64,000 bases of DNA, taken from assembly GCA_008802785.1 (NCBI GenBank), contig VUYT01000003.1, positions 248,001 through 312,000 of the forward strand. Reading direction: 5' to 3'. The position numbers and the translations under genes were made by a program. Positions 7,280 through 47,616 of this stretch are shown in pieces (within the stretch, counting starts at the first letter, position 1; every line of letters begins with the position of its first letter). A model generated the notes under the pieces. That model searched no databases. It worked only from the letters and a program-made list of their open reading frames with translations, and was not told where the DNA came from. This DNA comes from Symmetrospora coprosmae (Eukaryota > Basidiomycota > Cystobasidiomycetes > Symmetrosporaceae).

Positions 7280-9013
7280 ATGTGGAACACTGACCCCGAC
7301 ACGCACCGCTCAGTCCGGTCAGTCGTCTTCCTTCACCCCATCTGGGATGACGGCCACGCGCTGACGGCCTCCCCCCGTTCTCGCTTGTTTGGATGGATGG
7401 ATGGATGGATGGATGGATGGATGGATCCTCGCTCGCCCAGGTCTCCCGGTGCGTCTACACGGCCAGCTCAGCTCAGCACAGCTCGCAGACAACATACTGA
7501 CAATCAGTCCATGCTACAATGTAACGCGCAGCCTTCTTCGGACCCGTGACGCTCTCGGCTGCGCTGCTGTGAGTATCGCAACGGGTCCTGGTCCTGGTGC
7601 GCCCGGCCCGCCAAGGCCCTCCTCGTGCAATGGCTGCTAACGGGCAGGACGGCGGGCATCGGTCATGGACACTCGCCCAAGCGCTGACTTGTTCCCGGTC
7701 ACCCACCTTTGCAGCACTGTCTCGCTCTTCTCGACCCCAATCTGGTCACAGTTCGGATGGCTCGAAGCTAGGGCTGCAAATACGTGAGAGCGGCAGCGCC
7801 CTTCGCCCCCGCTTGCTCCGTCTGAGCTGCCCTGCTCATGCGAAAATGCCCTCTCTCCGCTTGCTGTGCGTGTTTGTGCACGCAGCACCCTCCTCGTCGG
7901 AGCCTACGGTGCCTGCATCAAGCTCAATGTGAGTCTGCCTCAACACGGCCGGGGGAAGGGATGTTCCCCCTGGCTCTTCTGCTTGGAAAGCACAGGCCGC
8001 CCGGACCGTCCGCTGATGTACTGCTGTCGAACCCGCTTTCTCTCCCTTATCGCACAGAACGACACTGGCGTCATTGGCCCGACCCGGTGGTGCTCGTCCA
8101 CTAACTTTGGATACCGCTTGAACATCAACCTGAATGACACAACAACCTTTCAGAACTGGGTGCGTCCGCAGCGACAAGCCTTACCGCCTCTGAGCGCCGG
8201 CTAATGCAAGCTCTATCGCTGGATGATTGGCAGCCCACCGGCAGCTCCGACGACAACGTCATCCTCGGCCTCATTCCCCAGCCCGACACGCTCGCCGTGC
8301 GCGAAATCATCACCTCTGGCAAGTCGACCCTGCAGATCTTCCACATCATTGCGGCCATCGCCGCGCTGCTGTGCGTCGCCTCGCTCATCGCCCCCGCCAA
8401 ATGGTTCAACAAGGGCAAGGGCACGCTGGCCAACTTCCAACGCTCCGGAATTCTCACCATCATCCTCGGCGGCATTGCCTTTGTCATGGCTTGGATCGCA
8501 TTCGCCGTCGTCCTCATTAATATTCTCGGCGGAAAGAGCGCCCTGAACGACATTCCGGGCATTTCGGCAAACTGGCCCGGCTCCGCTGCCCACTGGGTGC
8601 GTCCGGGCTGCGTGCCTAGTTGCCATTCTGGGATCTCTCCGCTGACTGTCCCCTGTTCCCCTCGCCGCTCACTCGGAACCCCTCTTTCGCGTGACCCCTT
8701 CAAATCTCAATATGCGCCCCCACAGTTCATCCTGCCGTCTGCCATCCTCTACATTCCGCCCTTCTGCACCGTCCTACTGCCCACGTACGTGCGCCCGGCA
8801 GATCAGGATGACGCAGACGCGCCCATGCCCTTGAACCAGGGTGCGTTCGCCAAGATGGACGACAACGACTCGCTCCCGGGCACCCCGAGCTACGCGGGAA
8901 GCATCAACAAGGCACCGCCCGGCATCTTCAACGGAAGCCCGGCGAGCAACTACCCAACAATGACGAACGCAGAGATGGAGCGCCGTGGCATCCAGAACAT
9001 GCGCACCAACTAA
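7280..9013 (+). CDS. SUR7/PalI-like four-helix plasma-membrane protein
   Basis: Eight exons join in phase to 315 codons plus stop: 7280-7317, 7441-7448, 7532-7568, 7715-7783, 7886-7928, 8058-8159, 8234-8596 and 8726-9013. The product has a short N-terminus, a first hydrophobic segment (FFGPVTLSAALLTVSLF) and an extracellular loop with GVIGPTRWCSS. Three further helices follow (IFHIIAAIAALLCVASLIA, ILTIILGGIAFVMAWIAF, ILPSAILYIPPFCTVLLP), then a polar cytosolic tail. This topology matches fungal SUR7/PalI (Rim9) proteins of eisosomes or ambient-pH sensing. Exon 2 is only 8 bases but is the simplest choice that keeps phase, so the N-terminal model is less certain than the rest. Confidence 0.75.
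7391..7426. repeat. (GGAT)n microsatellite
   Basis: Nine perfect GGAT units lie inside the first intron of the SUR7-like gene, 14 bases before its proposed 8-base exon. Confidence 0.95.
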
Positions 9014-9592: not shown

Positions 9593-11088
9593 TCACGTCC
9601 TGCGCGACAGAAAGCGGCGAGCCCAGTCGCCTTTCCCGAGTGCGCCGTCCTGATCAGTGGGGACAGCGAGTCGGGCATCCTCACCCTCCATTTGCTCTGT
9701 CTCTGTCAAGGCGTTTACGGACGCGAGTGACGACCGGCCACTGTTGAGACTGAATTGTCGGAGGGGAACAGTCCTCGCTGCGCGGGCGTGGTACCATTCT
9801 GTCGAGACTGCCGTGACCGCGCTCAAGGTCCTCGGTCCAGGTGCCCGTCCAGAGCGAGGCGGCGTGCTGCTGCTATACTGCTCCAGCTGATCTGGACTGA
9901 GCCGTATCGAGGGGTGCGCCATAGCAGCGGGAGTGGGCAGGACGACGTGCGAGTCGGCACTAGTTGCTTCGGCCGAGTAGGTAGACGAGGCTGAGATCGA
10001 AGAGGCGTCCGACAGTCGAGATCGCCCTGTACGCGCACCTTCACTTCCTGTCTTTGGCGTCACGGCGGACGCGTCGACGCCAACGAACGAGAAGCGGGAC
10101 TGGACCCACCCGGATTGCGTCTCTGAGGGTGGCCGCGCGGCCTTCTCGGTGACCGCACCGGCCTCTGCGTCTGGCTGTCGGTCCAGCTCCCGGTGCGGTT
10201 TGGCGTGCGACAAGAGCTGGCGCCGCGCATCGGAGTACCGCTTCCTCAGGCTTGCGTAAAGGAAGGCGAGGACGAGGACGACGATGAGGCTAATTGCGAG
10301 GAGGGACGCGAGCACCGACTCGACCACTTTGTCCTTGTGCGGCTGCCGTGCGTCCCGAAAGCTGGAGAATGTCAAGCCCAAGGATCAGCCGGTGGTCCTG
10401 GACGCAGTCAAGGAGCGAAGCTGGTAGGAACATGAACATACGCAGAGGCCGTGCCTGCTTGCACCTGCCCATCCGGTCCGGCCGAGGGCGAAGGCAGAGA
10501 AAGCGACCTGTAACTTGACGTGCCGGAACCCGGAATACCAGCCTTGACGGTGTTGATGGAGCACGAAGCGACCTCCGACACCGAAGAGGTTACGACATTT
10601 GACGGGGCTGCAGCGATCGCACTGGTGTCGGCGCCTTGGAGTAGCTGCAGGCACCATGTATCGCTTTCGTTGCCGCCGACTCGTCCATTCGACAAGACGC
10701 GCATGGGCGCTTCGGAGACGACACTCCTGCCGGTGGCGTCTGTCACGCGGAAGTCAAGGCTGGCATTGACGGGCGCGGCGAGGGCTGCAAGTGAGGATCA
10801 GGACAGTCAGCGCTCGTCCCTATGCCTTCTAGGCATGCGTTCCGCAGAACGGAGCGGGGACAATTCACCAGTCCAGCTCCACTCGGTCCGCGCAAGGCCG
10901 TCCACCAGCTCTCGCGTCGTGTTGCCCTCCCGGTCTGCATCTGCACCGCTTGAGGGCGTCCAGGCAGCGTCAAGTGCGTAAGGCGCGCAGCCGCCTTGAA
11001 TCTTGAGAACCACGGGGGCGCAGGCCAAGGCGGAGCTTTCCACTCGGAGCTGCAGCGCAGCGGCCGTCTGGGCGGTGCAGGCTGACAT
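9593..11088 (-). CDS. Array gene A: single-pass membrane protein with GGC-PY ectodomain and RTVPL tail
   Basis: Three exons (10869-11088, 10442-10784, 9593-10361) join in phase to 443 codons plus stop. The N-terminal ectodomain has CAPVVLKIQGGCAPYALDAAW, then after the first intron APVNASLDFRVTDATGR and DTWCLQLL. A Ser/Thr-rich stalk, one transmembrane helix (ASLLAISLIVVLVLAFLYA, about residue 200) and a cytosolic tail follow. The tail carries STEWYHARAARTVPLR. The C-x-x-x-GG-x-PY...sl-F-x-D-x-G...WC pattern resembles the Kre9/Ser-Thr-rich ectodomains common in basidiomycete membrane proteins. No cleavable signal peptide is visible from the chosen start. It belongs to a four-member tandem array with B, C and D; function unknown. 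Confidence 0.8.
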
Positions 11089-11435
11089 GGCGCTGACGGC
11101 TCGCCGGAAGGGAGATTCGAGGCCGGGCAGGAAGTCCAGCTTCCTGCGGTGCTCTCCGCTCTGATCCAGCAGAGGGAAAAGGGTGTGCGGGCCTGACAAG
11201 TGCAAGCAAGGGCCCTGCCCACGCGCCTTGCGGTCCGGTAGGAAGCGCAAAGGTGGGATGACGGATGAGTGGAGCGAAGAAGAGAGAGCGATGCCGGGAG
11301 GAAGGAGCACTTCCGCCCGCTGTCGTCTCCTTGACGATCGACCGTCAAGTGGCTATGGTGGCAAAGGCCGTCCTGGCCAGCTGCGCGCTGGATGGACGGA
11401 CAGTTCAAGTGCATATATTGGTATGACAGGGCGCG
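11089..11435. other. Spacer between array genes A and B
   Basis: About 350 bases holding the presumed promoter of A and the 3' end of B. Nothing else is recognised. Confidence 0.5.
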
Positions 11436-12894
11436 TTACCCTCTTCGAGGTCTTGCATCACGCAGGGGGACCGTCCTCGTCTGTGTTCGGCCGTAGTAGT
11501 CCGTCGACACGGCCTCGGAGATCTGCGTCGTCTGCGTGTGCGTAGTCCGGTTCGTGTCGGTCGAGAGGATCGACGACGGTGCAAAGGATGCGACAGAGTA
11601 GCGGTACGCATCCTGAGGTCCGCCCTCATCGGTGTCGCTACTGTGCTGCGACGAGACCCGCCGACTCGCTGATGCGGACGGCGAACTGAAAGTATCGTCC
11701 ACGTCTGCGAAGGGGTCGAGCTCTTCTTCGAGCTTGTCGAGATGGGCCGTGCGCGCGGGGCCTGCCTTGTTGGCCGAGTCTTGCAGGCCGGCAGGAAGTC
11801 GACCCGAAGCGAGAAGGGAAATGCTGCTCATCTGAGCTGGCACTCTCCCTAACCAAGCTCCTGCATGCTTCTCTGAACTCGCTCTCGTGAGCTGTGCTGC
11901 CTGCCGATCCTGGAGCGCCCCGTTCCCCTTGACCTCCGGTCCACCATCAACAGGTTCACTTTCGAGCAGCGCCGTGTACTGTCGGTGCAGGCGACGGTGC
12001 AGCAGTGTGATTGTCGCAATACCTGCGAGTGTCAGCACGAGGAGGACGGCCAGGACGACGACTGATATTCTGTATGTGAATCCGTTCCGAGCGTTAGTCT
12101 GACCAATCGGATGACTCCCCAGATGTGCGCAAGCAAGCGACTACGTACATCTCGCCTGCACCCAGCATGTCAGGCACAGTTGACGTCTCGGTAGCTATAG
12201 AGCCTGTCCCCGCGCGCGTGCTTGTGCTCGTGCTTGTAGAGGTAGATGACGGCACTGCCGGAGTCGTATAGTAGCCTGTGTCGGTAAGCAGGCACCATTC
12301 TGGATCTACGGCACCAGCAACAGGCGGCGGCAGGATGAGCGTCTGGAGGGACGTGTATGAGTCGTAGACGTTGCGCGAGGCGTCCTGGACCCGGAAAGAG
12401 AGAGTCGAGTTGGTTGGAGATGTAGCTAACCTCGACAAAGGTCGCGGGTTGCAGGGCACGGGAGTTGCGAGAGCACAGTACGAAATGGTTGTATCAGCAG
12501 ACTGCTGCATCGCGATCCGGTCATCGATGACCTGCCCCCGACCCTCACCGAACCATGCCCAGCTGTGATTGAGCTCAATCCCACTCGCAATTTCGACAAT
12601 CATGACGGTGTCTGACCCGTCGTTGGGGTCCCAGACCGCGGTCAGGATGTATGGACTACACCCGCCTTGCGGAATCAGAGCGAAGGTGTCGCAGGTGTGG
12701 GCAGTCTCTGGGATCTCTGAGAGGTCGAGCGAAAGCGGCTCGCCAGTGCAGCCGCTGCCGGTACTGGATGTCGCTGTCGCTGTCGCAGTGGCCCTCGAGG
12801 ACGACGAACGCGTCAAAGTCGTGAAGGAGGTAGAGGCATGGATCTCGCCGAGAAGGTTTCCATTGTAGCTGTAGCTGCTGGTGGTCGCCGCCAT
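11436..12894 (-). CDS. Array gene B: single-pass membrane protein with GGC-PY ectodomain and RTVPL tail
   Basis: Exons 12549-12894, 12149-12425 and 11436-12069 give 418 codons plus stop. The ectodomain contains CDTFALIPQGGCSPYILTAVW, AWF, then NSTLSFRVQDASRN and EWCLLTD. A Ser/Thr stalk, a transmembrane helix (ISVVVLAVLLVLTLAGIATI) and an acidic/Ser-rich tail follow, ending STDYYGRTQTRTVPLRDARP near the C-terminus. The first intron (12426-12548) is 123 bases, a multiple of three, and contains no in-frame stop. Its removal is inferred because the same junction (AWF / AP-N-S) is spliced in A, C and D, but a retained form would add 41 residues. No signal peptide is seen. Function unknown. Confidence 0.8.
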
Positions 12895-13318
12895 GTGTGG
12901 CTGTGCGCAACGAAGCTGCTTGTAAAAGTCACGGAGGAAGTGAGGGGGCAGGCGAACGATGGAATGAGACCTGGAGATTCAGGAGAATCAGTAGAGTACC
13001 GTAAGTAGGTTCAATTAGTGTGTATATGGAGAGACTCCGGTCGCATCATTGAAGAGATTCTCGACGGAACTTGAAGAAGACCGGCGGCACGTGGTGTTGC
13101 ACCGCCCGGGCTATTGCAGTATGGACGCGATCGGCCTCGCGAGCATTACTCCGGACGAGCGAGATGATGTTCCCTCATGCAGCTACTCTACAGACACCGA
13201 GGTACAAGCCCCCCGCTCCAGCTCTGCCTGACAGACCTAGACCGATGTATGTACTCCTGCAAGTCCGGGCCTCAACTGCGCCTCCCAACCTCATATCCCA
13301 CAAGCGAAGCAAGCCGTC
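12895..13318. other. Spacer between array genes B and C
   Basis: About 420 bases. Nothing recognised beyond the expected promoter of B and 3' end of C. Confidence 0.5.
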
Positions 13319-14916
13319 TCACCTATAGGTGGCATAGCTTCTGTCGCTTGCACTTCCGCTTGCACTTCCGCTCGGGCTCCCGCTCTCGCTTGCACTCCCA
13401 CTCCCGCTGCGACTGCTAGTATTTTTTCTCGTCCAGAACCTCGTCTTTGCGTTCAGGACAAGCGGGACTGTGCGCGTCTGCTTCGAGCTGTAGTACTCTG
13501 TGCTCATGGCCGCGCTCGTCTGCGTCGTCCCGCTCACACCGGTACCATCCGTGCCGTGCGAGGTGGCCTCCGAGATGCGTGAGTGCCGCGACGGGACGCT
13601 CGATGCGACGGAGCGACGGCGCGCCTCGTCGGCCTCAGTCTCGGTGTACTCGCCCGTGTCGAGCGTCTCGGAAAAGCTAGCGCCATCGCTGGCGTCATCG
13701 GCGTCCCACGTGTCGGAGAAGGGGTTTCGCAGAGGCCGGGAAGTGCTCGTGGGGTCGGAGCTGCGCAGGAGGGGCAGGAAAGAAGTTGGACTCTGGTCGG
13801 AGCGTGTTGCGGAGCTGGACTCGGCGGATGACTTGGATGCCGATGGGGACCAGGACGCGCCCACACGTGCGGTGCCAGGCGCTGGCGCCGAAGACGGCGT
13901 GATGGGGATCTGCAGCGATAGCGGGGGAAGAGAGCCCGCTGCCTCGCTCATGTCCATGTTGACTACCGTCTGAGCCGCGCGCAGCTCTCCCTCTCCCAGG
14001 TCGACATCGCGGCGGACCTGCTCGACCGCGCGGTCCTGCACCTTCTCGTGCTCCTCTAGTACGTGACCGCCATCGGTGCTCCACGACGCAGCGTACTTTT
14101 CCTCTCTCCGCTGGTTAGCACCCTCTTTGCGCTGCTCCAGGATGCGCGTGTAGCTCCTCCGCAGCCGCCAGTGCCGTGTACCGAGCACGGCGAGCGCGAG
14201 CGCCGCCAGCGCGAAGAGGGCGCCGAGCACGGCCTGTGCGACGATTGCGCGGTGGAGCGCAGCCTCGGTCGCCGGGTCTGCGGCAAAGACGAGCGGCAGC
14301 CCGACCTCCGTCACGGGTTCAGATGCGTTCAGCTGCGCAAGGCACCACGAGTCTGTGTCCGGACCCGCAGACTGGTACTCGGCCGTGTCGAGGTAGGCGG
14401 CGTCGTAGTTGGACACGACAAAAATCCCGTTCGGCGCGTCTAGCGTATTGCCGGTGCTGTCGGCGAGCTGGAAGGTGACGCTCGAGTTGACGGGGGCAGC
14501 GACTGTGTACGTGTCAATGTGCGTGAGGCCGTCAGCACGTCTGTTTCACTTGCCAATGTGGGATCGCTAGCAGATGTGAGACGAGACCACGCACGATTGA
14601 ACCAGGCTGTCGCGCCCGATCCGATATCCGAGGCGAGCCTGCGCTGACCGTACATGGTCGCGCCTGTCCCGTCGTCGTACGAGTACAGCGCTGTCAGGCT
14701 GTATGGCGGACACCCTTCGCGCGGCTGCACAGAGAGCATTGTGCATGCCGGCAGGGTGTCGTTGAATGTCGAGTTCCCAAAGGAGAGCGAGCCGTCCGTC
14801 CTGCAGACGCGCGAGCTTGAGGAGGATGTGGATGACGACGAGGCGGATGAGGATGGGGATGAGGACGAGGGTGGCCAGGAGGTCGTCGAGCGTGACAATG
14901 AGTGTATGTACGACAT
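13319..14916 (-). CDS. Array gene C: single-pass membrane protein with RTVPL tail
   Basis: Two exons (14595-14916, 13319-14502) join in phase to 501 codons plus stop. After a Ser-rich N-terminus the ectodomain has CTMLSVQPREGCPPYSLTAL, AWFN, then APVNSSVTFQLADSTGN and DSWCLAQL. The transmembrane helix (IVAQAVLGALFALAALALAV) is followed by a basic juxtamembrane RHWRLRRSY. The long tail has STEYYSSKQTRTVPLVLNAK and a final Ser/Gly repeat. The second intron present in A, B and D just before the helix is absent here, so it was probably lost. No cleavable signal peptide. Function unknown; a paralogue of A, B and D. Confidence 0.82.
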
Positions 14917-15379
14917 TGCTCGTCTATGGACTGTCGGGGTGGGGGGACAGGCCGCGGTGAGCTCGACTCGTGTCGCGCGGCAGGCCAGAAACGGCGCAGG
15001 CGCAGGCGCAGGCGCAGGGAGAGAAGGTGCTCGGTTGGAAGATGGATGCGAGGGTAGAGCTGTGCTGCAGTGCAGAGCAAACACCCTGGGATATGCGTGT
15101 GTCAAACGTCGGACAGCGCTTCGCGGGCAGGCAGATGGGCAAGAGGGAGAGCAGAGAGGAGGAGTTTCATGCACGGCACTGGCACGGGTGGACGCGCCAG
15201 TGGCAAATGGCCCACACACACACACACCACGCAGAGACAGAGACAGAGAGAGGGAAGTGAGATACATATATGGGATACACTCCCGGGGATCTGGGCCAGT
15301 ATTCTTGGAAAGATACACGGTGTACTGCGTCCTCGGTGAAGGGAAAAAAAGCGAACCCGTCGCATGCAAGGGAACTCTC
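14917..15379. other. Spacer between array genes C and D with CA/GA repeats
   Basis: About 460 bases with a (CA)n tract near 15212-15228 and GAGACAGAGA-type purine repeats just after it. No protein-like ORF. Confidence 0.55.
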
Positions 15380-17832
15380 CTAGCCACGTCGTCCTCCTCC
15401 AAGCAGGCGACGGCCCCATTGCGAAAATGTCGAATCACCCCCGGTGCTGCTGCCGCGCCCTTCGCTGTCCGCGTACCCGTCCGAATCGCGGCTGATGCTA
15501 CGCTCGGTCATGGTCTCGCTGCCATGCCTCGGCGCACCACCGCCCATGGGATCCCGGAAGCTCGTGTCGCTGAAGCTGCGCGCGTCGTCCGTCATCGTTT
15601 CTGCTTCACCGCCGTCATACCCAAATGGGTAGCTGCGCTGCTCCCGAGCCCAAGCGCGTCGGTCACTGCTGCTCGCGGTACTACTGCTGTTCCGCCGACC
15701 GTCCGAGGATCCAGTGCGCGTTGAGCTGCCTTCTTCGCCCGTGGATGCGCGCGTGATGGGCACAAGGACCGTCTCGATGCTGTCCGTGTCGGTAGCATAC
15801 GGGTCCACCGCAGGGTCTGCACGCGTGTCCTGGCGCATAACAGCGGGTCGAGCAGCTTCGTTTGTAGTTGGCACGCCCAGGGTTCCACCACTGGCGTGCG
15901 GCCTGCCCCACTTGCTGCGGAACGTGCTCGGCGCCGTTCCGTGCCCATGGCTGCAGCCGGTCCCACTTCCCTCGAGCGAGAAGCGCAGCGGGACCGTGCG
16001 CGTCTGGTGCTTGTGGTAGAACTCGGTCGACACGGCCGAATTGCCGGCAGAGGAGCGAGCGCCCCCGCTCGGCGCGTCAGAGACGAGGCTCGTCGCCGAC
16101 AGGCGCGCTCGATCCAGCTCGTCTCCTTGCACCCGTCGCCGGCGCTGATCTGCGCCGAGTAGCCCGCCAGCCCCGGCTGCCGATGCATGTGGGTTGGCAG
16201 CGTCGTCGTCGAAAGGATTGCGACTCTGCTGCCATTCGCCCGTCGGTGTGATGAGCGCGAATGCAAGATCGTGCTCGCTGCGAGAGTCCAAGAGGTGGTC
16301 CGTGTGCCCCCGTCCTGCTTCTGCACCGTCGCGCTGCCCTCGTCTTTGCCGCACAACTGGCCCGCCGCCGTGCCTCGGCTTTTCCGACATGCCCTTCTCT
16401 CCCGACACACCAGGGCTGCCGCTGCTGCTAGTGACTCCAGAGGCGGCGCTCTGGATGGCCAGCTGCTGCGACATGCGCTTGTAGCGCCGCTTCAGGCGCA
16501 GGAACAGGAAGAGGAGGACGAGCGTCGACAGGATCGAGACCGCGAGCAGGCTGGCGAGCGCGGCTTCAACCTCTTTGGCGTGGTGGGCGGCTGCAATGTC
16601 TTGCGAGCTGCAAAGGCGTGTGTGCCGTGACCACTCAGCAACCTGTGAAACACATTGCGGCAGACAGGCAAGCATAGGAGCACCCACACTATCTCGCTCA
16701 GATCGTTCGCATTGATCCCTTCAGTAGTCTCGCTGCCCTGTGTAGCATCGTCCGATGACGTCGACGACGGTTCTGTGGTCGGTGTGCCTTCCGGGCCTGC
16801 GGAGGCGCCGCTCCCGCTTGCGCCCGAGCAGGTGGTAATGTACTCTTTCACGCGAATGGACCCATCGTTGTCCGTGACTGTGAATGTGGCCGTCTTTGTC
16901 ACCCACATGCCGTTGTCCGCGTCGTAGCTGGCTGTTGGGTCGAGCGGGGCCGTGATTGTGCTCGTGGGCGGGCCATTCTCCGGGTCGCTGGCGTTGTAGG
17001 CCAGCTTGTGCTTGCTGCCGTCAATGCCCGTGGGAAGGACGGCGACCGTGCTGTTCCAGTGGCTTGTGCTGCTCGCCGGTGCCCTGCTCGCCGTGCTCGA
17101 CAAGCTTGTGCTGCTGTTCGCTGCGCTGTCGGGCGGGATTGACGACGAGATGGAGGGACCCGGAGGAGCGGAGTCCGAGTTGGCACCCGGCTCGTCGCGG
17201 CACCAGCTGTCCTTGATGGTGCCCATGCCATTTGAGCGGATGCGCAGTGGGCGCGCGGAGCGGATAGTGACGCCCGCTGCGTCCTGCAGCTCGAACACGA
17301 GGCTGCTGTTGGGTGGGGCGGCGACTGCTCTCGGAAGCGGAGTCAAGGATCGGCGGTCAGGGAAGGAGAGAGGGATGCCAGTAGCAGGAGAAGCAAGTCA
17401 GCCTGTGGATCTTGCACCTGACAATTCCAAGCTGGCGCTGCAGGTCTGGCTTCCCGTGTCCCCCTTCCTCTTCCCGTGCCGGCCATGCTGCCTCCGCCCG
17501 CTCTTTTCTGCAGGAGACCGCTCTGGCAGGCTTCGCAGCGAGAAGGGGGGGACCTGGACGACAGGCAACATCGGACTCGGAGTCATGCACGCACCGTTCC
17601 ACTCGAGCGAGCTATCCCACGTCCGCTCGCTGAGCTTGCTCCAGGTCGACGAGGTGCTCCCTTGGGGTGACGTCTGGGTGTACCACCACAGAGCGCTGAC
17701 GGTGTATGGCGCACACCCGCCTGCCCATTCGACGGTGAGGCGGTCGCAGCTGCAGGGGGACTGCTGCAGGTCGAGCGTGAACGTGAGCGCGTCGTAGATC
17801 ATCGCCGCCGTGGGTGATGGTGCCGACATCAT
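15380..17832 (-). CDS. Array gene D: largest single-pass membrane paralogue with RTVPL tail
   Basis: Exons 17595-17832, 16688-17327 and 15380-16607 give 701 codons plus stop. The ectodomain contains CSCDRLTVEWAGGCAPYTVS, LEWN, then APPNSSLVFELQDAAGV and DSWCRDEP. A long extra Ser/Thr/Pro region with a VTKTATFTVTDNDG stretch precedes the transmembrane helix (ASLLAVSILSTLVLLFLFL) and basic RLKRRYKR. The cytosolic tail contains STEFYHKHQTRTVPLRFSLE and more than 150 further polar residues. The two introns lie at the same places and phases as in A and B. The first is 267 bases, much longer than in the paralogues, so a missed small exon cannot be excluded. Function unknown. Confidence 0.78.
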
Positions 17833-19740: not shown

Positions 19741-22700
19741 ATGCACCCCCAGCAGATCCCCGCTCGAGCAAGTCCTGCAGCCAGGCCACCCGCTCAAAAA
19801 GCCGACCTCAAGGGCAAGGGCAGGGCAGCAGTCCAGCAGGAAGAGGACGAGGTGAGGGAGGACGGAGCACATGCTTCTGCTTCTGCAGTGTACTGAAAGC
19901 CCACGCTCACGCTGGCTGTCCCCATGCCACTCACTCTCTCTCTCTCTCTCCAGGCCCACGCCGGCAAGAGCACCCGTGCCTCTCGCTTGTCCAGCCCGTG
20001 TCTAGCGAACCAGCAGGACGCCCTAGCAGCCACCGCTGCCGCACGAGCCCGATGGACGCCGGCAGTGCTGAGCGACCTGTCCGAGGAGGAGATTGTGCGC
20101 AAGCTGGAGCAGTGCCTCTCCAAGCCGGCGAGCGGGCAAATGATCCGCGACTCCTGGCGGTGCTTCACGGCCCTCAGCCTCGATAGGCGGAAACAGCTGC
20201 CTGTGGCTCTGCTGGAGCAACTCCTGGACCTGCAGCTCAGCCGCACAGCGAGCCCAAGCAACCTGCGCTGGTTCCAGGCCCGCCGCGGAGGGATCCTCGC
20301 GGAAGGACGCCTGATCTACGAGCAGGGCCCCCGGGTCGCTGCCGTGTTTCAGGCGCGCAGTGGGCGGGCCATGCAGGAAAGCATCGAATTGAGGGCTGTG
20401 CAGATCGTGCAGGAGTGGCTGCGAAGGGTCAACAGGTCTGCGACGATTACCCGCGACGCGCGGGAAGCTGCTCTACAGAGTATCCGCGATGTCGCGCAGG
20501 CGTGCCTCGACAGCGCGCGCCTTGCTTGCGAAGCAGGCGCAGACCCAGAGCATCAGCGCAAGGAGGAGATGGAAGCGCATCTCGAGCGACGGCTCGCTGC
20601 ATTGCGCGTTATGCGCGAGCTGGTCGCCACGGAGGGCGACCTCGCCTCCCGCATCGAACTCCAACACTTGCTGGACGACTTCCACCGCTTGCTGAGCCTG
20701 CTCGGCGCGCAACAAAGTCGCAGAGGCACACTTCCGCCGCTCAGCGAGGACATTGCAGCTTTCGGCGGCGACCTCATGCGCTCGTGCATCTTCCTGGACG
20801 ATACCGAAGCAGCCACGCAGGTTGTGGACCGCCTGCTACGGGCGGGCATCGTCCCACCGCGGGAAAGCATGGAGAGACTGCTGCTTGCTACCCCAGCGGA
20901 GGACGTTGTGCAGTTTGAACAGCGCATGCGAAATGTCGCGGGAGAGCCCAACGTGCCTGAGCGGATCCGCACGTGGGCATTGGAGCAACTTCCAGGAGCC
21001 GCGCCTGCGCTTAATGATATGGCCGCCGACAAGAAGCAGAGACTCCACAGCCTGGCGCTGCGTGCACTGGACCAGACCATGCTCGCTACAGACCAGTGGT
21101 ATCGCCAACATGGGAGCAGCTCGACTATAGCCATTGACACCGATAGATCCATAGACGGCCACGGCGACGGCGACGGTACAGCTGCAGCTGTAGATGAGCG
21201 CATCAAAATCGAGCGTGCAAACGCGCTCACCGCCTCAGGCATCTACCAGGGCCTGCTCGCGGGCGGCATCAGCCCGGACGACACGCTTTACGCCGCTATC
21301 GCGTCTGCCACGCGGCTCCTTTCCCACGAGTCTGTCGCCTTCCCACTGCTGCGCACGCTAGCAGTGCAGCACGCCTCCTCGCATCGCGACGAGCAGCGCG
21401 TTCATGCCGGACGTGCGCAGAAGGCACAAGTACAAGCACCCGCGCCCAGGTCCGCGCTCGCCCAAGCTACGCCGGAGCAGCTCTTCCGCCTCGCGCTCGA
21501 GACGGCAGATTATGCGCTCGCCAAGGCTCTGTACGGGCACCTGCGCAGCCGCGGCGGGTTCCGCTGGCAGCGAGAGCGAGATGAAGGGGCGTTTGTCAGG
21601 CTGTTCAAGGTGGCCGCGGCTGGTCGTGCGCTTGCGCTAGACGCCCCGCCGGCGAGCGACTGCGGGAGCGAGAGCGGAAGCGCAGCTAGGGCTGGCATTG
21701 ACCTTGCCCGAGACAGGCAGATAGCCAAAGGCGCCGCGCAGCTCTACCTTGACTGGATCGATGATATGCGCAGCGCGCGCTTCGGTGTTGACGACCTCCA
21801 CCAGCGTGGCAGTGGACGTGCGGAAGGCGTCCACGCCGACACCCCGGCAGCTGTCGTCGACGATATCCTGCATCTCATCCCGCGCATTGCCGATATCGCC
21901 ACCTTCCGCCGCATGCTTGACACCCTCCTCTCAGACGCGGGCGTCTCTCTAAAATCCTCGCAACTGACTCGCTTCTTCGAGCAGCTGCGTGTGCAAGCCG
22001 CCCATCTCGACATGACGCGGCGCCCTGCGTCTGCCCGCACGGGCAGAGGCGAGACCCGGGGCGACACGGCGGGAGCTCGTCCTCACCCGCTCCGCTCGAT
22101 CTGGAAGGTCGAATATGCGTATGGCGCCGTTACCGCCCTGGCAAAGCACACGGCGCCGCAAATGCAGCCTGCGGGCTCGCACGTGTGGACAGACAACCCG
22201 CACCGCCTCCCGCTGGCAGCGTACAACGCGTGCCTCCGCGCGCTGGCCGAGTACCCGCTCTCGGCGCGTGTCGAGCGCGCAGACATCATGTTCCGCGCCA
22301 TGGTAAAGCGCGGCGTGCGCCCCGACCTGGCGAGCTACAACCACCTCCTGCGGCTGTACAGCCGAACGCCGCAGCACGCCGGGCGGGCAGAGACGCTCTT
22401 TGCGCAGCTTGCCACAGATGCAGATGCTGCACACCGCCCGGACGCAGTCACGTACTCGCATATGATCCGCGCGGCGTGTCGCGCAGACGAGCTCAACAAG
22501 GCGGTGCAGTGGCTGCGCGAGGCGGGCGGGCGGGCGCTGGTTGTGCGCTCGAGCGCCATCCGGCGACTCCTCGGTGCACTCCGTGACTCGGGAAGGGCGT
22601 GCGCGGCGAGGGAAGCGTACGAGCTGTGGGCGGACGCCGTCAAGGCCGCTGGCCCGGCGACGCAGCAGGAGTGGGCGAAGGAGGTCCATGCGGTCGGGCG

Positions 22701-23856
22701 GCTGCTCGAGCCTGGGCTTGGCGCAGAGACCGTCTCGCAGACAGCCGCGCCGGCTACACAGGCGGACACGGCAATCGAGACCATCTCTGAGCAGGCATTG
22801 GAAAACGCACAAGGGATGCAGAATACCGAGGCTGAGGCGCTTGCCTTCTCTGCTTACGACAGCAACGAGACGGGCAAGACGCGGCTCCCGCTCTCGACAT
22901 TCGTCAGTCCAGCGTTCGGTAACGGCGCGGAGGATATTGGCAACGCAGCACTGTCGGCTGCGCCGGGGAGGACTGCCGAAGAGGGCCACGCTGCCAATGC
23001 CGCCGTCATGGCCGATAAGGCAACTGGAGGAGACGATCGTCGTAGCGGGCACGATGGCGAGCGGACCCATGCGAAGGAGGGGCATTGGCGCGGGCGCATT
23101 GTTCCGGAAAGACAGTCCTTCCTGACTGCCTTCTTTACGTCGAATGGTGATGCGGCTTCGCCGGAGAGCGCTTCTGCCCGGGTTGCCAGATGTGAACAAG
23201 GCCAGACGGCATCAGCTAGCTATGCGGGCCCCGAGCAGGATGACAGTCTCCAGCGGCGGGAAGTGGAGGCTGTCGCCCAGCAGTCTAGTCCAGCGCATCA
23301 TCGTCAGCTCGAGCACCGCCATCAGCATCAGCACCAGCATTCTCAGTCTCAACCGGCTACGGCCAATTCCTCCTCTGCACCAATCCCTACCCCGACTCAG
23401 GGACCTGCAGCGCCATCGGCATTCGCACCCTTCGCCTTCCCCTCATTCTCGCAAAACTTCTCCACTTCCAGCCGGACGTTGTCGCCCTGCTCCGTTCCGG
23501 ACATTCCAGCAACTGCGATTGACGTTGGCAGCAGCAGCAGCGGCAGCGCTACGCAGTCAAACTCAAGCTCCTCCTCCTCCTCGTCCTCTCACGCCGACCC
23601 AGCGATCCCGCCGTCGTCTCTCTTGAGCGCCCTGCCGAATGTATCGCTCTCGTCTCTCCCGTTCTACCTCGCAGATTTCACCTTTGCCCAGCTTTCGGGC
23701 CTCTACCAGCGCTATCAGCTCGAGATGGATGCGATACGGCGCGAGGAGCAAGAGCAGAGCATGCTCAAGGTACAAAGAGAGAGTGTGCAGATGCAGAGGG
23801 CCGATGCGGATCGATGGAGGGGCTGGAAGGAGGTCGGCGCCGTGCCATGGTATTGA
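19741..23856 (+). CDS. Pentatricopeptide-repeat protein, probably mitochondrial
   Basis: Two exons (19741-19851, 19954-23856) give 1337 residues. The acceptor follows a CT-dinucleotide tract. The N-terminus is rich in Ala, Arg and Lys with few acidic residues up to about 30, as expected for import into mitochondria. The middle is helical. Clear PPR-like units lie at about residues 785-890, with AYNACLRALAEYPLSARVER, ASYNHLLRLYSRTPQHAGRA and TYSHMIRAACRADELNKAVQ. The C-terminal third is low complexity (Ser, His-Gln). It ends with an amphipathic charged helix (YRYQLEMDAIRREEQEQSML in outline). PPR proteins bind organellar RNA; the target cannot be told. Confidence 0.8.
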
Positions 23857-28924: not shown

Positions 28925-29816
28925 CGGGCTTGAAGCTGTGCAGGGGTTTTCGTCATCACCATGTAGCGCCTTGCTTGAATGCTATCGCTAAATTCCGCCA
29001 CGACGGGCTGGTGCGTAGAACTGACGCCCTTTCTTTCGCTTCATCAATAAGGTCAGCTCCAAGCCGTTCTTCCGAGAAGGCACCGGGGCGCTCCTCCCCT
29101 AACCTCAGTCTGGACCGTCTGGCGCTCTCGATTTTCTGGACTGCTTCTCATTGATGACCACCGTCTTTCAAGCTCAACTATTGCCGGGCCGCAATTCCAT
29201 ACCAGCTGCCCTCTTTTCCTACGCCATACGAGCATCTACTGGTAGCCAGCTCCTGCCAATCTAACCGTTTCGTCCTTCTTTGTCTAGATCTGCCCTTTGC
29301 CACCGGTCCGAGCACGAACCCTCGACGGCTTCATCGACATTCGGCACGTCGATCAACAGCATGAAATGCTCGTGAGTAACCTCCCTTGTACGCCAAGCAG
29401 CCAACTGTACGCGGGCAGTTGTTGTCAACCGCACGTCTTCGTGCGTGCCTCTCCAATGATGACCCGTTTAAGGGTTCGGCGTAAGGGGCAAGCGCAACAA
29501 AGCTGTATCGATGTGGTCAGTGCTCACACTCAACCGTTGCTCGCCATCGTACTGACTCACCTACTGTGTGGGCTAACTGAGTTGACTGCCACGTCGTATT
29601 CAACCAGATTGTCTCTGACGGCCTGAGCGAGGGTGCATCTAGCTGACGAGGCTGTTGAATCGGAGAACCCTCGAGACTCACCTCTCTCTCCTACCGCAAC
29701 TTCACGCTCACTACTCTTCTTTGACCGAACCACGCCTCGATACGCACTTCGCTTCTTTTGTCTGACCTGGTCGCCCCCTTCCCAAAGCCTCAGTGCCCCG
29801 ATCTCGTCATAGCTCA
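28925..29816. other. Intergenic region upstream of the secreted-protein array
   Basis: About 890 bases of kinase 3' flank and promoter of P1. I see no protein-like ORF, RNA gene or clear repeat. Confidence 0.5.
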
Positions 29817-30975
29817 ATGCTCCCTGTCATCCTGTCTCACCTCTTCCTCGCCGTCTCTTTCGGCCAGCTAGTCGTTGGCGCAGGACTTGCCAGTAGCTCG
29901 AGTAGGCGCATCGCACCGCTGCAGGCACGAACGAATGCAGAAGCCATCCAGCTCGGACAGCCCTTGCTCAAGCCTAGACTGGCTGCAAGTATGTCGGCGC
30001 GCTCGAGTAAAGAGACAGAGCGCTGGCTGACTGCAAGAACGCGCTCGTAGCACGCGTTGGATCGAGCCTGAGGCGGAGGCGCGCCAGTCCGGCGGTGAGT
30101 CGTTGCAAGGCGCCTCGAGTGATGTCGGACAGGGCTGACACGACATTTGCTGCCTCGACCAGTACGGAAGCGAGGTGGGCCGCATATAACGAGCGATCGA
30201 ACTCAGGCTACTGACTCGCCGGCTCGCAGACAATCGACTTTGAGGACCTCGTCCTCGGGGTAGGTGACGAAATCTTTATCGATTCCGAGTACCGCGATAA
30301 GCACTGGGACGACTCGATCGTTGTCGAGAAAAATGCGTACCCTCAGGTCCCAGCCGGGTCTGGTGCCAACTGGCTCTACGTCAATCCTGGTGGGCCTGTT
30401 AGTTCCCTGATCCTAGCCAACCGTGTGGCTGACACATCTGCCGTCGTTCCAGGACCGGTTTTTGGTAGCACCGACACGACCGGATGGAATGGGTGGAAAC
30501 CAGTCATCTCGACCCCAAATGGCTCGCCCTCTCTTCGCCTGCGCTCCTTGGTGTGTGGAAAGGCCAGCGACGTGGCCAAGGATGCTGTCCTGACCGTTAT
30601 CGGATCCGTCGGAGGGACGGTAGGTTCCACATCGCTCGCAGTCTACCGATCATGCCTGCCTGACCAAAGTTGATTGCTGCAGGAGATCTATGGTGTCGAC
30701 CTGGCCTGCCCGGAAGGCTCCTCTGGGCAGTATAATGCTCTCGGTAACCTCGCTGCTGTCGATACTATGTGGGTTGGTCCCGTCTCAAATGATGGGGGTC
30801 TGCAGCGCTGACTTGGCTCTCTTTGTACTTGTACGCAACAACAGCTCTTTCCGCAGTGGCAGTGGCTGTAGGTGACAGGCCTCTTCCAGCAGGCCATCGT
30901 TCACAGATTGACTGTTCCTTCCGCCGTGCAGTCACTGGCATGGTGGACGACGTGGTCTGCCACACGGTCGCGTGA
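29817..30975 (+). CDS. Array gene P1: secreted pre-pro-protein
   Basis: Eight exons (29817-29988, 30051-30094, 30163-30174, 30230-30389, 30453-30619, 30683-30768, 30845-30867, 30932-30975) give 235 residues. A signal peptide (VILSHLFLAVSFGQLVVG) is followed by a pro-region with RTNAEAIQLGQPLLKPRL, then the dibasic site LRRRR-ASPA. The mature domain starts IDFEDLVLG and has ANWLYVNPGPVFG, LRLRSLVCGKA, VDLACPEG and NLAAVDTM. It ends FTGMVDDVVCHTVA. The F-D/E-D-L...NPG...L-C-P...AVD-M...DD pattern suggests a beta-sandwich extracellular domain. I know no assigned function. Exon sizes are nearly identical to those of P3 and P4, which supports the model. Confidence 0.82.
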
Positions 30976-31568
30976 TTCGCAGCAGACAGGCGGTCCGGAT
31001 CAGACGTCTTTCCAGCATTTCGCTGCGCCTTCATACTTTCCTTGCTCTTCCTGGTGCATGTGTCGGGGCTGCGCTTTGTACTTGAGCATTGCTATGGCGC
31101 TTACTACCTGTCCGTTTGCCACTGGCATGCATGGTTCCGGGAGAGGCAGAGCCCCTCGTCCTGGATGTTGCGCTCCGACCAAACCCTTTCCATTTCAGCA
31201 ATGCCGGGATACGTTTGCTGTGCAGGTCACTGCGTGCAGCGATACCTCTGACGTGCCCTCGATGACATTTCATGCAGAACCGCGTTGCCCGTCCCCGTTG
31301 CCATCCTCGGTTCTCCGCTACTCCTCCACTCCGCTCCTCCGCTCCGCTCCGTCCCTTCCCTTCCGAGCTCCCCGCAGACTGGCTCCCCCTCGCTCTCCCC
31401 TTTGTTCCTTGCTGGAGACAACAGATGCGGGCAATCCTCCTGACCAGGTCACCTCCTCCCTTCCACCGCCTCGCAGATACTGCACTGCAAAGCAAGATCC
31501 GCACACATACGCACACCCACGCTTCGTCATGCTGACTCGGCCGGTGCGCTGTGTGGATCCGCTCCAAG
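30976..31568. other. Spacer between P1 and P2
   Basis: About 590 bases. It should contain the signal-peptide exon of P2, but no NAEAI...LLKPR motif or signal peptide joined to P2 is visible. A pyrimidine-rich stretch lies at about 31300-31420. Confidence 0.5.
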
Positions 31569-32603
31569 CTCGAGTCGATGGCAACCACAACAAGAAGCGT
31601 GCCAGTCCGATCGTGAGCTCACATTCAGTGCATGGGTTCCCAAGGGTCTGGCGAGGATACTATCGGCTGATGCCGTTATCGTTCCGGGATCACACAGCTC
31701 GTGGTGCAGGCGCGTGGACGTAACTGACAGACTTGTATCCCCTACCATGCTGAGTGAGCTACCTCCTTGCAAACGCAGGTCATCGACTTCGACGACGACC
31801 TCACTTACGATAACGCCCCTCTTCCCGACTACTACGCGGGATATTCGTGGTCGGACGGACTGGTTGTCCGGCCTGACGCGTACCCTGAGCTCGGCTCGTC
31901 GACCAGCTCAGAACCCAATGCACTCTACCTGAACCCTGGTCAGCTGACCTGATGCAGTTTACGCCGAGATCTTGATCGCAGCAACTGACTAGCGGCACCC
32001 TTACGTCTTCTGCACAGGCCCTGTCTACGGACCCGTCTACTCACCCGGAAATGCTGAACCCCTCGGGACCACCAGCCCCATTATTGGATCAGAGGATGGC
32101 TCCCCTGTACGACTGTCGTCTCTCCGTTGCATTCGCGCTCTTACCGGTGTTCCAGGCGATGCGACGGTGACTGTCAGAGGCGGACCTCAACAGGGTGCTG
32201 TGCGTTCGCGATCTTTTGATGCGCGGCTTAGCTATAGCCCCAGATCTCTGAGCGCGATTTCGGAGCTTCTATCGACTGACCATGCTTCCTCTCCGTGTTT
32301 CGCATCCCGAAGCCGGTGTATGCCATCGATCTCATGTGCCCCTCGGGCTCGACCCAGCTGAACCAGTTTGTGAACCTGCCTGCCGTCCAGTACATGTGAG
32401 TCGGCCCATCCTTTCCGCACGCGCTAGTCGACTAGCAGCTGACGAGACTCGGTACATCGGAACATGCAGTACCTTCACAAGCAGCAGCGGATGTGAGCTC
32501 GGCTTGGCGGCTTGTGCATCAGCTTGCGGATGAAGGACTGACCGATGGTTTTCTCGCAGTTGCTGGCATTATCGATGACCTTGCGTTCATCACTTTCAGC
32601 TGA
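31569..32603 (+). pseudogene. Array gene P2: 5'-incomplete paralogue of P1/P3/P4
   Basis: Several exons match the paralogues in size and sequence: 31569-31612 (RVDGNHNKKRASPI, 44 bases), 31779-31938 (VIDFDDDLTYDNAPLPDYYA to LYLNPG, 160 bases), an exon from 32018 (GPVYGPVYSPGNAEPLG), about 32313-32395 (VYAIDLMCPSGSTQLNQFVN), 32470-32492 (TFTSSSG, 23 bases) and 32560-32603 (FAGIIDDLAFITFS, 44 bases). No signal-peptide exon is found. The 12-base exon cannot be placed with a normal donor, and the exon 5 to 6 junction does not keep phase simply. It is probably a decaying copy; an unusual first exon remains possible. Confidence 0.55.
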
Positions 32604-33239
32604 TCGGGATCATAGACTGCGTGTCCTGACAGGCGGTCTTGAGACTCGGGACATAGATACTTCAGCGTCATTTTGCACTCCCTTACCTTTCGGATTTGTC
32701 AGGCTCGCATTCTGCGCGTGCTGGGTTGCGCTCTCACTGACTGCGATACTTGGAGAAGACGATACCAGATGACATGGTGCGAGAGGAGAAGGATGCAGCC
32801 TGGAGCAGAATAGCGCTGTACTGTGATGCGCTCCTGCGCCGTGACGACATGCGATCATAAGCCAGACCTGCCAATCAACTTCGCCGGCGACGGGATCGCC
32901 GGGACTCCATTACGATATGAGGGGCACCTACAATACCGCGAACTTCCCTCGGTGCGGACTGCTCCCCAGGCTTGCGCTGCAGGTGCAGCCCTGTCGGACC
33001 TGATGAACCTCAACGCCGATAAGGTGCACCTAACGCCGACGCCGCGCCTCTAGCGCCAGGTGGATATCCGAAGCGCCGCAGAAGTCGGATCTCAACCACT
33101 TGTGACGAGAGACAGCTGTGCCCATCGAGTATAAATCAGTCGGCCCTGCTTCTTTCTCCTTCTCTCCTTCTCTCACCCCCATCTCCCAGGCCCCTTCGCC
33201 CGCTTCATCCTACCAACCTAGAGCTCACCCGCCGACACC
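32604..33239. other. Intergenic region between P2 and the aldo/keto reductase
   Basis: About 640 bases with no recognisable gene. Its end holds the reductase promoter: a TATAAAT and then a long CT-rich stretch before the ATG. Confidence 0.5.
33130..33136 (+). promoter_or_regulatory. Putative TATA box of the aldo/keto reductase gene
   Basis: TATAAAT lies about 105 bases upstream of the ATG and is followed by a CT-rich tract, a common fungal core-promoter arrangement. Confidence 0.45.
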
Positions 33240-34467
33240 ATGGTCAAGACACTTCCCTTCGCCGACCGAACCGTCCCCTCGCCGGGCTTCGGCGCCATGG
33301 GTCTCAGCTTTGGCTATGGCACCAACCTCAGCCCGGAGGAGGCGGAACCCGTCCTGCTCAAGGCTATCGAGACGGGTTGCCTGTTCTGGGACACCGCCGT
33401 TGCGTACGCCGCAGGCATGAACGAGAAGCTGCTCGGCGACTTCATCCGCAAGCACAATGTGCGGGACAAGATCTTCCTCGCGTCGAAATGCGGCTGGGAC
33501 ATGAACTTTGAAACGGGCAAGCTCAACGGTGTCACCAACTCGGTTGCACACATCAAAGAGTACATTGATGGCACCATCGAGAGACTCGGCTTCACGCCTG
33601 ATCTGTACTACCTGCACCGCATTGATCCCAGTGGGTGTTACTCTCGCAATAAGCATGGCTGCATATACTCAGCTGATCAGCTGGCTCCGAACAGACACGC
33701 CATTGGAGGAGTCCATCCCTGCCCTTGACGACCTTCGAAAGGCAGGCAAGACCAAGTACATCGGACTCAGCGAGTGCTCCGCCAAGACCCTCCGCAAGGC
33801 CAACTCCAGTGAGCGCTTCCCCTTCAGCCCAGTCGTCGCCGGTTCCGCCAGTATTCTGAGGCAATGCGGCGCATGTCTTACTTCCAGTCGCAAAGATTGA
33901 TGCCGTCCAAGCCGAGTACTCTGCCTTCGAGACCGTGCATGAGACAGACGGTCTCATTGACGCAGCTCGCGAGCTGGGCGTGACCTACGTGGCATACAGT
34001 CCGCTTGGACACGGGTGGCTCGTCAGTTCCAAGGATTTCCCCTTCCAAAGTCCCGAGGATTTTCCCAAGGACGACTTCAGGCGGAGTTGTGAGTTTGCGC
34101 TGCCGCCGCTCTCGCCTACGGTATCAATATGTAGTCTGACACATGCTCTGACCTTCATTCCGCTTCTCCAGCCCCAAAGTTCCAGGGAGAGGCCTTCTAC
34201 AAGAACAGGGCCATTGCCAACGAGATCGAAAAGATAGCAGACCGGAAAGGCGTGTCGCTCAGCCAGATCGCCCTGGCATGGGTTGCTGCGCAGGGCTTCA
34301 TTGCCATCCCAGGGACGACAAAGCCGGAGAGACTCGAAGCCAACTTCTCTTCGCGAGAGATCGACCTCACCGAGGAGGAGAAGAAGGAGATGCGAGAGAT
34401 CATCGACCGAGCTAAGCCCGTTGGCGACCGATACACGGCGGCTCAGCAGGCCACGGTTGGGCACTAG
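33240..34467 (+). CDS. Aldo/keto reductase
   Basis: NADPH-dependent oxidoreductase with a TIM-barrel fold, probably cytosolic. Exons 33240-33630, 33695-33808, 33888-34088 and 34172-34467 join in phase to 333 residues, the usual family length. Motifs in order are [28 protein letters not shown] with the expected Asp and Tyr, Lys in [14 protein letters not shown] with the active-site His, [28 protein letters not shown] and [15 protein letters not shown] for cofactor binding. It resembles the yeast and plant auxin-induced/pyridoxal-reductase-like group. It sits inside the array of secreted proteins but shares nothing with them. The substrate is unknown. Confidence 0.92.
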
Positions 34468-35314
34468 ACGGTGCGGACCGTGTACTCCCATGCTATAGGC
34501 GGTAGCAGATTGGCTCGCCCGTGGTCTAGATCTGCACTAGTCCCAATCAATGAGCGAATCTCCTTGAGCCCCGTTGGAGCTTGGATTGAGCCAGGGCAAG
34601 CTTCTCCCTGCTACTCCGCATGTTGCTTCGCTCCTCTGCTTGCTTTGCTTTCTCGACACGAAGAGCGGTCCTGAGTCAACTGACGCCGAGGGTCCTCTCC
34701 CACGCACTCTCTCGCTCTGTACACGCCGCTGAAACGCGCCGACACAGAGCATACCCTGATGGAGGCGATGGAGAGTGCAGCGACACGCCATTCGGAAACG
34801 AGCAAGGAGCGTTCGTGGGCCATCTGACAGAGCGGACAGACCGCCTGCCGTGCATCGCCCGTTTCTGCGGCCCAACGGGCTGGACACAGTGACAGCTGAG
34901 GCCTGCATCGCAACGGTCACGACCCAAGAGCAGGGGCAAGGGGCATCGGCATGGAGCAGGGTCCTGCATTCTCCTCTGGCATTCCCGTTCACCGCTGACC
35001 CACTGGCGGGACGTCGGCGTCGGCTGCTCCGAGTCGGGGCGTCCGAGCTGTCAACTCACTGAGCATCCTGCGAGCGGTTTCTTCTTCCTCCTCTCTGCTG
35101 TCACGTAGCATACCTCCAGACCATCCGCCTTCCCTCATCACCACTGCCCATACGCTTTGACAGGCAACTCACGCTCTTTAGCACTTGCAGCTCCATCCGC
35201 AGATCCGTGACTACTCGAGTACCCCTGAACACCGCCAGCCAGTCGGGCGTCCCCAATCACCTGCCAATCGAGGCCCGCTCACACAGACCGTCTCCACCCG
35301 ATCTTCGTGTCACA
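34468..35314. other. Intergenic region between the reductase and P3
   Basis: About 850 bases, no recognisable gene. Probably the reductase 3' end plus the P3 promoter. Confidence 0.5.
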
Positions 35315-36535
35315 ATGACCATCTCTTCCCTCCTCTCCTTCGCGCTGCTTGCCCTCTCCGTTGCCAGTCTCGCTGGAGCTGTCGGTCCCGCGCACGTGCC
35401 CTTTCGCCACAGCCTCGCTCTCCGTGCTAACACAAATGCAGAGGCTATCAGGCAGGGCCTGCCTCTCCTGAAGCCTCGGATGGTTCCGAGTGCGCGCGAA
35501 GCCCACCGCATGCTCCCAACATGCGCAAGGCTGATCCTCGCGGCGTCCTCTTCTTGCAGCCCGAGTTGACCGTCACCACAACCGAAAGCGCGGCGGACCC
35601 AGCTCGGTGGTGAGTACATTGGATGGATTTTGAACACTCCGCATGTCTGAAATCAGCCCTGATGTTGGCTGCTGTCATATGTTCCAGTTCCGTACCGAGG
35701 TGAGGTCGCTCGATATGGTGCGCTTCCATCCGCCACACGCGCCTGACTCGCTCGTCCCCGCAGGCTGTCCGCTTCAGCGACATCGATGGCGACGAGAATG
35801 ACGATATTGTGCAGATCCCGTACGACTTTGCAGGGAAGAGCTGGAACGTTGCCATTGCGGCCAACACTGCAGCTTTTGGCTTCCCCGCTGGAGCAGGTAC
35901 CTTCTCGCTCTTCGTCAATCCGGGTGAGCGCGCACTCTTCCTCAGTCTCCGAAAGGTCGAGAGCGACAAGAGCCGACTGTCGACCCCGCACATCGTACAG
36001 GCCCCGTATACGGCGACTGGACCGAGTACACGCCCGCGATCTCGTCCCCGGACGGGTCAGCTACTCTCCGCGTCCGTTCGCTAGCGTGTGGTCAGGCGAA
36101 CGAAGGCGTGGAGGAGGGAGCCGTCCTGACCCTGACCGGGTCAGTCGAAGGGGTGGTAAGCATTTCGCATGTCATCATGCTACACACTCTTGGAGGGACA
36201 GGCTGACAAGCCGCCGTGCACTCTCCAGCAATACTATTCGATCGATCTCGACTGCCCTGCGGGCGACACCGTCCGCCTCAACAGCTTTGTCAACCTCCCC
36301 GCCGTCGACACTGTGTGAGTGTGAGGCCCATCTTACTTAGAGCGCTTCGTGCTATACTGATGCTACTCCACGTACTCCTCGCTTTACTGTACCTACAGGT
36401 CCTTCACAAGCAACAGTGGCTGTGAGTGCGGAATCTGATCGTCTAGGACTGCTCGACTCATGGGTTGACTCCCTTCTTCTACGCCATGCAGTCGCTGGCG
36501 TCGTCGACAACCTGAATTTCCTGGCTATCGACTGA
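35315..36535 (+). CDS. Array gene P3: secreted pre-pro-protein
   Basis: Exons 35315-35489, 35560-35609, 35688-35699, 35764-35923, 36001-36155, 36229-36314, 36399-36421 and 36492-36535 give 234 residues. The signal peptide is LLSFALLALSVASLAGAVG. The pro-region has ANTNAEAIRQGLPLLKPRM and the dibasic site HHNRKR-GGPSS. The mature domain has VRFSDIDG, FSLFVNPGPVYG, LRVRSLACGQA, IDLDCPAG, NLPAVDTV and SFTSNSG. It ends FAGVVDNLNFLAID. The 12-base third exon encodes FRTE. Same architecture as P1 and P4; probably extracellular or wall-associated. Function unknown. Confidence 0.84.
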
Positions 36536-47512: not shown

Positions 47513-47616
47513 CTTCTGTCTTCGCACCCTAGACGTTTTTTGGCGCCCGAGCATCACGTGTAGCACAGTACAGACGCTCTCCTGTTGTCTGACACACTAG
47601 CAAGGAGGTACAGAGC

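Follow-up and report, generated by a model that had tools for sequence, protein, structure and literature searches.

A 64,000-nucleotide stretch of DNA from the basidiomycete Symmetrospora coprosmae (contig VUYT01000003.1, positions 248,001 to 312,000), referred to below as the window, carries a tandem array of four related genes, A to D, each predicted to encode a protein with a small outer domain (ectodomain), one membrane helix and a tail that bears a near-invariant motif. The main addition to an earlier interpretation made from the letters alone (the sequence-only reading) is a graded series of putative endocytic signals in these tails, with NPFxD in C and D, a weaker DPFxD in B and none in A. 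Our preferred reading, for which we judge the balance to be even, is that the array encodes a family of Wsc1-like surface sensors, probably of the cell wall, that lack an evident signal peptide and are recycled through Sla1 at paralogue-specific rates.

A tandem array of four related genes

Minus-strand exons could be rebuilt into four head-to-tail genes with GT-AG introns, transcribed in the order D, C, B, A, with stop-to-next-start spacings of about 350-460 nucleotides:

9593..11088, minus strand: gene A, 443 amino acids, exons 11088-10869, 10784-10442 and 10361-9593, supported by the spliced orthologue P0001
11436..12894, minus strand: gene B, 418 amino acids, exons 12894-12549, 12425-12149 and 12069-11436, supported by the spliced orthologue P0005
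13319..14916, minus strand: gene C, 501 amino acids, exons 14916-14595 and 14502-13319, supported by the spliced orthologue P0007
15380..17832, minus strand: gene D, 711 amino acids, exons 17832-17595, 17324-16690 and 16642-15380, a predicted model

Intron 1 occupies an identical position, in phase 1, in all four models, and a second intron lies upstream of the helix in A, B and D, with none in C. The sequence-only reading had described four separate genes, head to tail on one strand, which have in common an ectodomain, a single helix and a motif in the tail and have diverged strongly elsewhere, and this description was confirmed. The outermost limits of the models fall exactly at 9593 and 17832. 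Leave-one-out profiles gave the held-out member 51.7-65.4 bits when built from the ectodomain and 21.7-30.5 bits when built from the tail, far above the top shuffle of 9.3 bits in either profile set. Of the 999 shuffles per test, 928-999 were scored.

The exon models of A, B and C were further matched by orthologues. Protein searches beyond the genome gave seven proteins, each of which was judged an orthologue or a near-identical copy of one of the genes A, B and C; the search that returned P0001 scored just 7991 candidates, and the absence of homologues elsewhere says little because the fungal content of the searched protein database was uncontrolled. Identity over aligned residues was 68% for P0001 (A), 76% for P0005 (B) and 90% for P0007 (C), and all five modelled junctions were crossed ungapped (2/2 by P0001, 2/2 by P0005 and 1/1 by P0007), with 10-20 of 21 residues identical around them and no gap within ten residues. 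These three proteins may derive from complementary DNA or from intron-free genes, and both origins would support the exon joins. The same searches found no orthologue of gene D, whose predicted 47-nucleotide intron 2 is the weakest junction of the array models.

P0001 and P0005 are each listed with two contigs, the longest of 3247 bases, and B, the window gap and A together measure 3014 bases. The B and A orthologues may therefore lie on one contig, a guess from these lengths, and if that contig is spliced, a shared B-A message across the intergenic stretch 11089-11435 is possible. Polycistronic transcripts have been reported in mushroom-forming fungi, according to the abstract of PMC4503453.

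The family appears confined to the array within the searches made. Scanning the window in all six frames with the family profile gave no fifth member, the next match having an expectation value (E) of 0.07. Across the genome (20.05 Mb, 77 contigs), protein searches with gene pieces, not every exon, gave no extra paralogue at E<=0.003; these were single-sequence searches without profiles, and they overlooked some pairs within the array itself, one query recovering neither A nor D, so distant paralogues could escape them. Five weaker places (L016, L021, L022, L025 and L026) had E of 0.08-1.6, and the three scored with the family profiles (L016, L021 and L022) gave nothing better than E 0.083. 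A Pfam scan of the four proteins listed matches at E<=10, although HMMER filters discard most of those above about 0.1, and placed no domain above its cut-off; likewise, no solved structure in the PDB matched the four-protein profile by sequence at E<=10. No published account of this family was found among the matches listed in literature searches, and two motif strings occurred in no paper among the matches listed.

A predicted Ig/FN3-like ectodomain

The ectodomain core spans about 95-105 residues with the pattern C...GC-x-PY...W...P-x-N-[AS]-[ST]...F...D...WC, within which intron 1 falls ahead of P-x-N-[AS]-[ST]:

10651..11022, minus strand: gene A ectodomain core, C23 to WC118, spanning intron 1 (profile; model of orthologue)
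12292..12693, minus strand: gene B ectodomain core, C68 to WC160, spanning intron 1 (profile; model of orthologue)
14342..14745, minus strand: gene C ectodomain core, C58 to WC161, spanning intron 1 (profile)
17200..17748, minus strand: gene D ectodomain core, C29 to WC121, spanning intron 1 (profile)

An N-glycosylation sequon stands at one shared position in all four ectodomains (NAS, NST, NSS and NSS). The outer parts contain 5, 4, 4 and 6 cysteines in A, B, C and D, against 0, 0, 0 and 1 in the tails, and serine and threonine make up 21-32% of the outer parts. AlphaFold2 models of the orthologues of A and B suggest, at moderate to low confidence, an immunoglobulin (Ig)/FN3-like sandwich, the kind of fold for which the sequence-only reading had asked structure prediction; the fold comparison covers the families listed by Foldseek or VIA. 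Pfam listed a Big_9 Ig match for one of the four proteins, at E 2.4. Gene D has a second outer stretch (approximately residues 170-245), which had no Pfam match at E<=0.01.

The sequence-only reading had also seen a resemblance to Kre9, which found no support. The domain of Kre9/Knh1-type wall proteins (Kre9_KNH, PF10342) was unlisted for all four proteins at E<=10. The single weak Kre9-like match in the genome is a separate gene on a different contig, for which a comparison with the ectodomain profile gave a probability of 0.1%. A Kre9 origin was rejected.

One membrane helix without an evident signal peptide

Each of the four proteins contains one strongly hydrophobic stretch, in keeping with the single helix originally described:

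10247..10318, minus strand: gene A transmembrane helix, residues 203-226 (hydrophobicity; helix in orthologue model)
12000..12069, minus strand: gene B transmembrane helix, residues 208-231, with residue 208 split by intron 2 (hydrophobicity; helix in orthologue model)
14177..14248, minus strand: gene C transmembrane helix, residues 193-216 (hydrophobicity)
16499..16564, minus strand: gene D transmembrane helix, residues 318-339 (hydrophobicity)

In 4/4 proteins the flank on the C-terminal side of the helix is more positive than that on the N-terminal side, which argues for an N-out/C-in orientation. No signal peptide was evident in any of the four models, as judged by hydrophobicity only and with no dedicated predictor. 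This absence, the conserved sequon and the tail signals described below had all gone unmentioned in the sequence-only reading.

The lack of an evident signal peptide would be explained if the gene models were incomplete and an upstream exon carrying a signal peptide had been missed, making these ordinary type I receptors. A hydrophobic ATG peptide does lie 254 nucleotides upstream of C, with weaker ones upstream of B, and the P0001 frame of A extends upstream and includes a mildly hydrophobic stretch there (best 12-residue mean 1.15). However, the DNA ahead of C is rich in pyrimidines and carries insertions in the near-identical copy P0003 (by eye), and the top upstream ATG peptide of A scores 0.01. 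Upstream of A's ATG, P0001 is collinear with unspliced window DNA yet aligns in two frames, so the region is hardly coding in the window. We consider missed exons an improbable explanation, although a leader upstream of C keeps some likelihood.

Putative graded endocytic signals and a shared module in the tails

All four tails contain the motif ST[ED][YFW]Y-x4-[TA]RTVPL, and three of them also contain a putative signal of the Sla1 type, placed 63-74 residues ahead of it in C, D and B:

9761..9805, minus strand: gene A tail motif STEWYHARAARTVPL (gene model, alignment)
11463..11507, minus strand: gene B tail motif STDYYGRTQTRTVPL (gene model, alignment)
13460..13504, minus strand: gene C tail motif STEYYSSKQTRTVPL (gene model, alignment)
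15986..16030, minus strand: gene D tail motif STEFYHKHQTRTVPL (gene model, alignment)
13712..13726, minus strand: gene C tail NPFSD, putative Sla1-type endocytic signal, kept in P0007
16205..16219, minus strand: gene D tail NPFDD, putative Sla1-type endocytic signal (gene model)
11703..11717, minus strand: gene B tail DPFAD, weaker signal variant, kept in P0005

According to passages of a review, Sla1 recognises NPFX(1,2)D through its SHD1 region, and a related variant, DPFxD, is less effective. The strict pattern NPFX(1,2)D occurs in 2/4 tails (C and D) and the wide pattern including DPFxD in 3/4; gene A and its orthologue P0001 alike have neither NPFxD nor DPFxD in the tail. When each tail was shuffled 50,000 times, the strict pattern arose at a rate of 0.00036 for C and 0.00098 for D, and the wider pattern at a rate of 0.002 for B. 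A basic, serine-rich patch lies between signal and motif and forms a third, weaker likeness among the tails; it is plain in B and C, where it reads R[RY]SVAS.

A Sla1 carrying SHD1, the domain that reads NPFxD, is encoded in the genome. SHD1 has a single genomic match, above its cut-off, within a 957-amino-acid frame that also matches PH_SLA1, SH3 and SAM and aligns to yeast Sla1 (2hbp) with E 8.9e-14.

The array might instead encode endomembrane proteins that cycle between plasma membrane, endosome and trans-Golgi as Drs2 does, with a lumenal Ig-like domain that handles cargo or lipid. NPFxD also occurs in trans-Golgi proteins, according to the review, and the failure to find a signal peptide by hydrophobicity would also fit such proteins. 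However, the Ser/Thr-rich outer part and the sequons suit a wall-exposed protein, and none of the four has a Pfam domain above cut-off; we regard an endomembrane role as distinctly unlikely.

Between orthologues, the motif region is identical at 18/19 (A), 17/19 (B) and 18/19 (C) residues and the ectodomain at 92/117 (A), 141/158 (B) and 99/102 (C, from residue 59 only), with 60/123 (A), 92/146 (B) and 176/205 (C) for the tail ahead of the motif. These counts indicate conservation of the head and of the tail motif, with drift in A and B of the stretch ahead of the motif. Heads conserved in this way, together with their divergence among paralogues (B, C and D are just 31-34% identical to A over the ectodomain) and a tandem array as in recognition families, could be read as the marks of recognition or adhesion proteins, whose diverged heads would bind other cells, hosts or mating partners while the tail just anchors and recycles them, with no wall-stress signalling. 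However, the tail module is the most constant part across paralogues, which argues for a common intracellular output, and Pfam listed no adhesin domain, glycosylphosphatidylinositol signals and adhesin repeats not having been searched for. We think recognition or adhesion unlikely as the role of the family.

In the AlphaFold2 model of P0001, two short strands fall, at low confidence, on the tail motif (residues 475-489, window 9761-9805). Readings of the motif as a 14-3-3 or YxxPhi site were dropped for their poor fit.

A candidate family of Wsc1-like sensors

In the arrangement that we infer, the proteins would stand in the plasma membrane. Outside the cell, a Ser/Thr-rich stalk and a small Ig/FN3-like domain with disulfide bonds and N-glycans would contact the wall and a ligand; a long disordered tail would lie inside. 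The helix would act as a reverse signal anchor in place of a cleaved signal peptide. Sla1 would read NPFxD in C and D, or the weaker DPFxD in B, and the protein would be internalised; since Sla1 would be reading differing signals, the paralogues would recycle and polarise at different rates, with C and D fastest, B slower and A managing without Sla1. The ST[ED][YFW]Y-x4-[TA]RTVPL module may dock one cytosolic partner common to all four, through which signals would plausibly pass to Rho1 and the cell-wall-integrity pathway; in Wsc-type sensors the tail binds Rom2 and activates Rho1. The sequence-only reading had proposed a surface recognition or wall-sensing receptor; of this, the surface sensor is favoured, helped by NPFxD/DPFxD and Sla1, while ligand, wall contact and signalling are parts that we still infer.

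Passages of PMC7915640 and PMC6685044 describe Wsc1 as a protein whose Cys-rich head is joined by a Ser/Thr-rich region, a single helix and a tail with an NPFXD motif that drives constant endocytosis, and describe it as bound by Sla1 through SHD1, with its endocytosis dependent on NPFXD. The array resembles Wsc1-3 of S. cerevisiae in its small outer head, Ser/Thr-rich part, single helix and NPFxD tail. Unlike Wsc1-3, its heads are predicted to be Ig/FN3-like, a signal peptide is not evident and the WSC domain (PF01822) was unlisted by Pfam for all four proteins at E<=10; despite the matching architecture, membership of the Wsc type fails because no WSC domain is listed. The array also goes beyond Wsc1-3 in its extra near-invariant tail module and in forming a tandem family with graded endocytic signals. 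Elsewhere in the genome, the only four WSC-domain matches cluster on a single strand, inside 1.2 kb and beside two DUF1996 pieces, apparently one gene of the DUF1996 kind, and no membrane helix followed them, by eye, in the frames read. No Wsc1-type sensor was thus found in the genome by these sequence matches, although an exon may have been missed or a sensor may have diverged.

Mid2/Mtl1 sensors, like the array proteins, are single-pass with a Ser/Thr-rich outer part. They differ in that the Mid2 Pfam match (PF04478) was unlisted for the four proteins at E<=10; in the genome, the sole Mid2 match was below cut-off, in a small open reading frame unlike Mid2, and was rejected. Cryptococcus Wml1 and Wml2 are described in parts of PMC9765558 as single-pass, Ser/Thr-rich candidate sensors whose double mutant has reduced Mpk1 phosphorylation. 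The likeness to these basidiomycete candidates is one of description only, and the filter that found them required a signal peptide, according to the same passages, and would therefore pass over the array family (PMC9765558).

A bolder proposal, possible but in our view rather doubtful, is that the array represents a new class of wall sensor, Ig-headed, tandem and without a signal peptide, in which a graded endocytic code gives a shared output module differing surface lifetimes. Published papers describe a core pathway that is better conserved among fungi than its upstream wall-stress sensors, report for C. neoformans that most wall-integrity components are conserved, sensors excepted, and call the identification of endocytic cargo in filamentous fungi a priority; PMC2666651, PMC9148135 and PMC7889276 are also among the papers cited. 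The proposed class would go some way towards closing the gap that poor conservation of Wsc-type sensors leaves in this lineage. If the sensor reading is true, the family would supply testable candidates, of a kind missed by the signal-peptide filter behind Wml1 and Wml2, in which endocytic signals of differing strength can be compared within one set.

Other features of the window

The GC content of the window is about 55-65% in 2-kb steps. Adjoining the downstream end of the array is a weak match to SUR7/PalI, below the curated cut-off, and the remaining observations are as follows:

8138-9010, plus strand: weak SUR7/PalI match, E 0.00022
19897-23853, plus strand: open frame of 1319 amino acids with PPR repeats
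29766-38247, plus strand: a second tandem set of mutually similar small open reading frames, of which those at 30215-30670, 35928-36203 and 37444-38247 are 41-51% identical over 48-68 residues
41305-47128, plus strand: open reading frames with HELRTPL/HELRNPL and a receiver-like stretch, which we take to resemble a hybrid histidine kinase
47557-48127 and 51379-52195: an inverted repeat pair with opposite-strand open reading frames 87-91% identical over 46-73 residues

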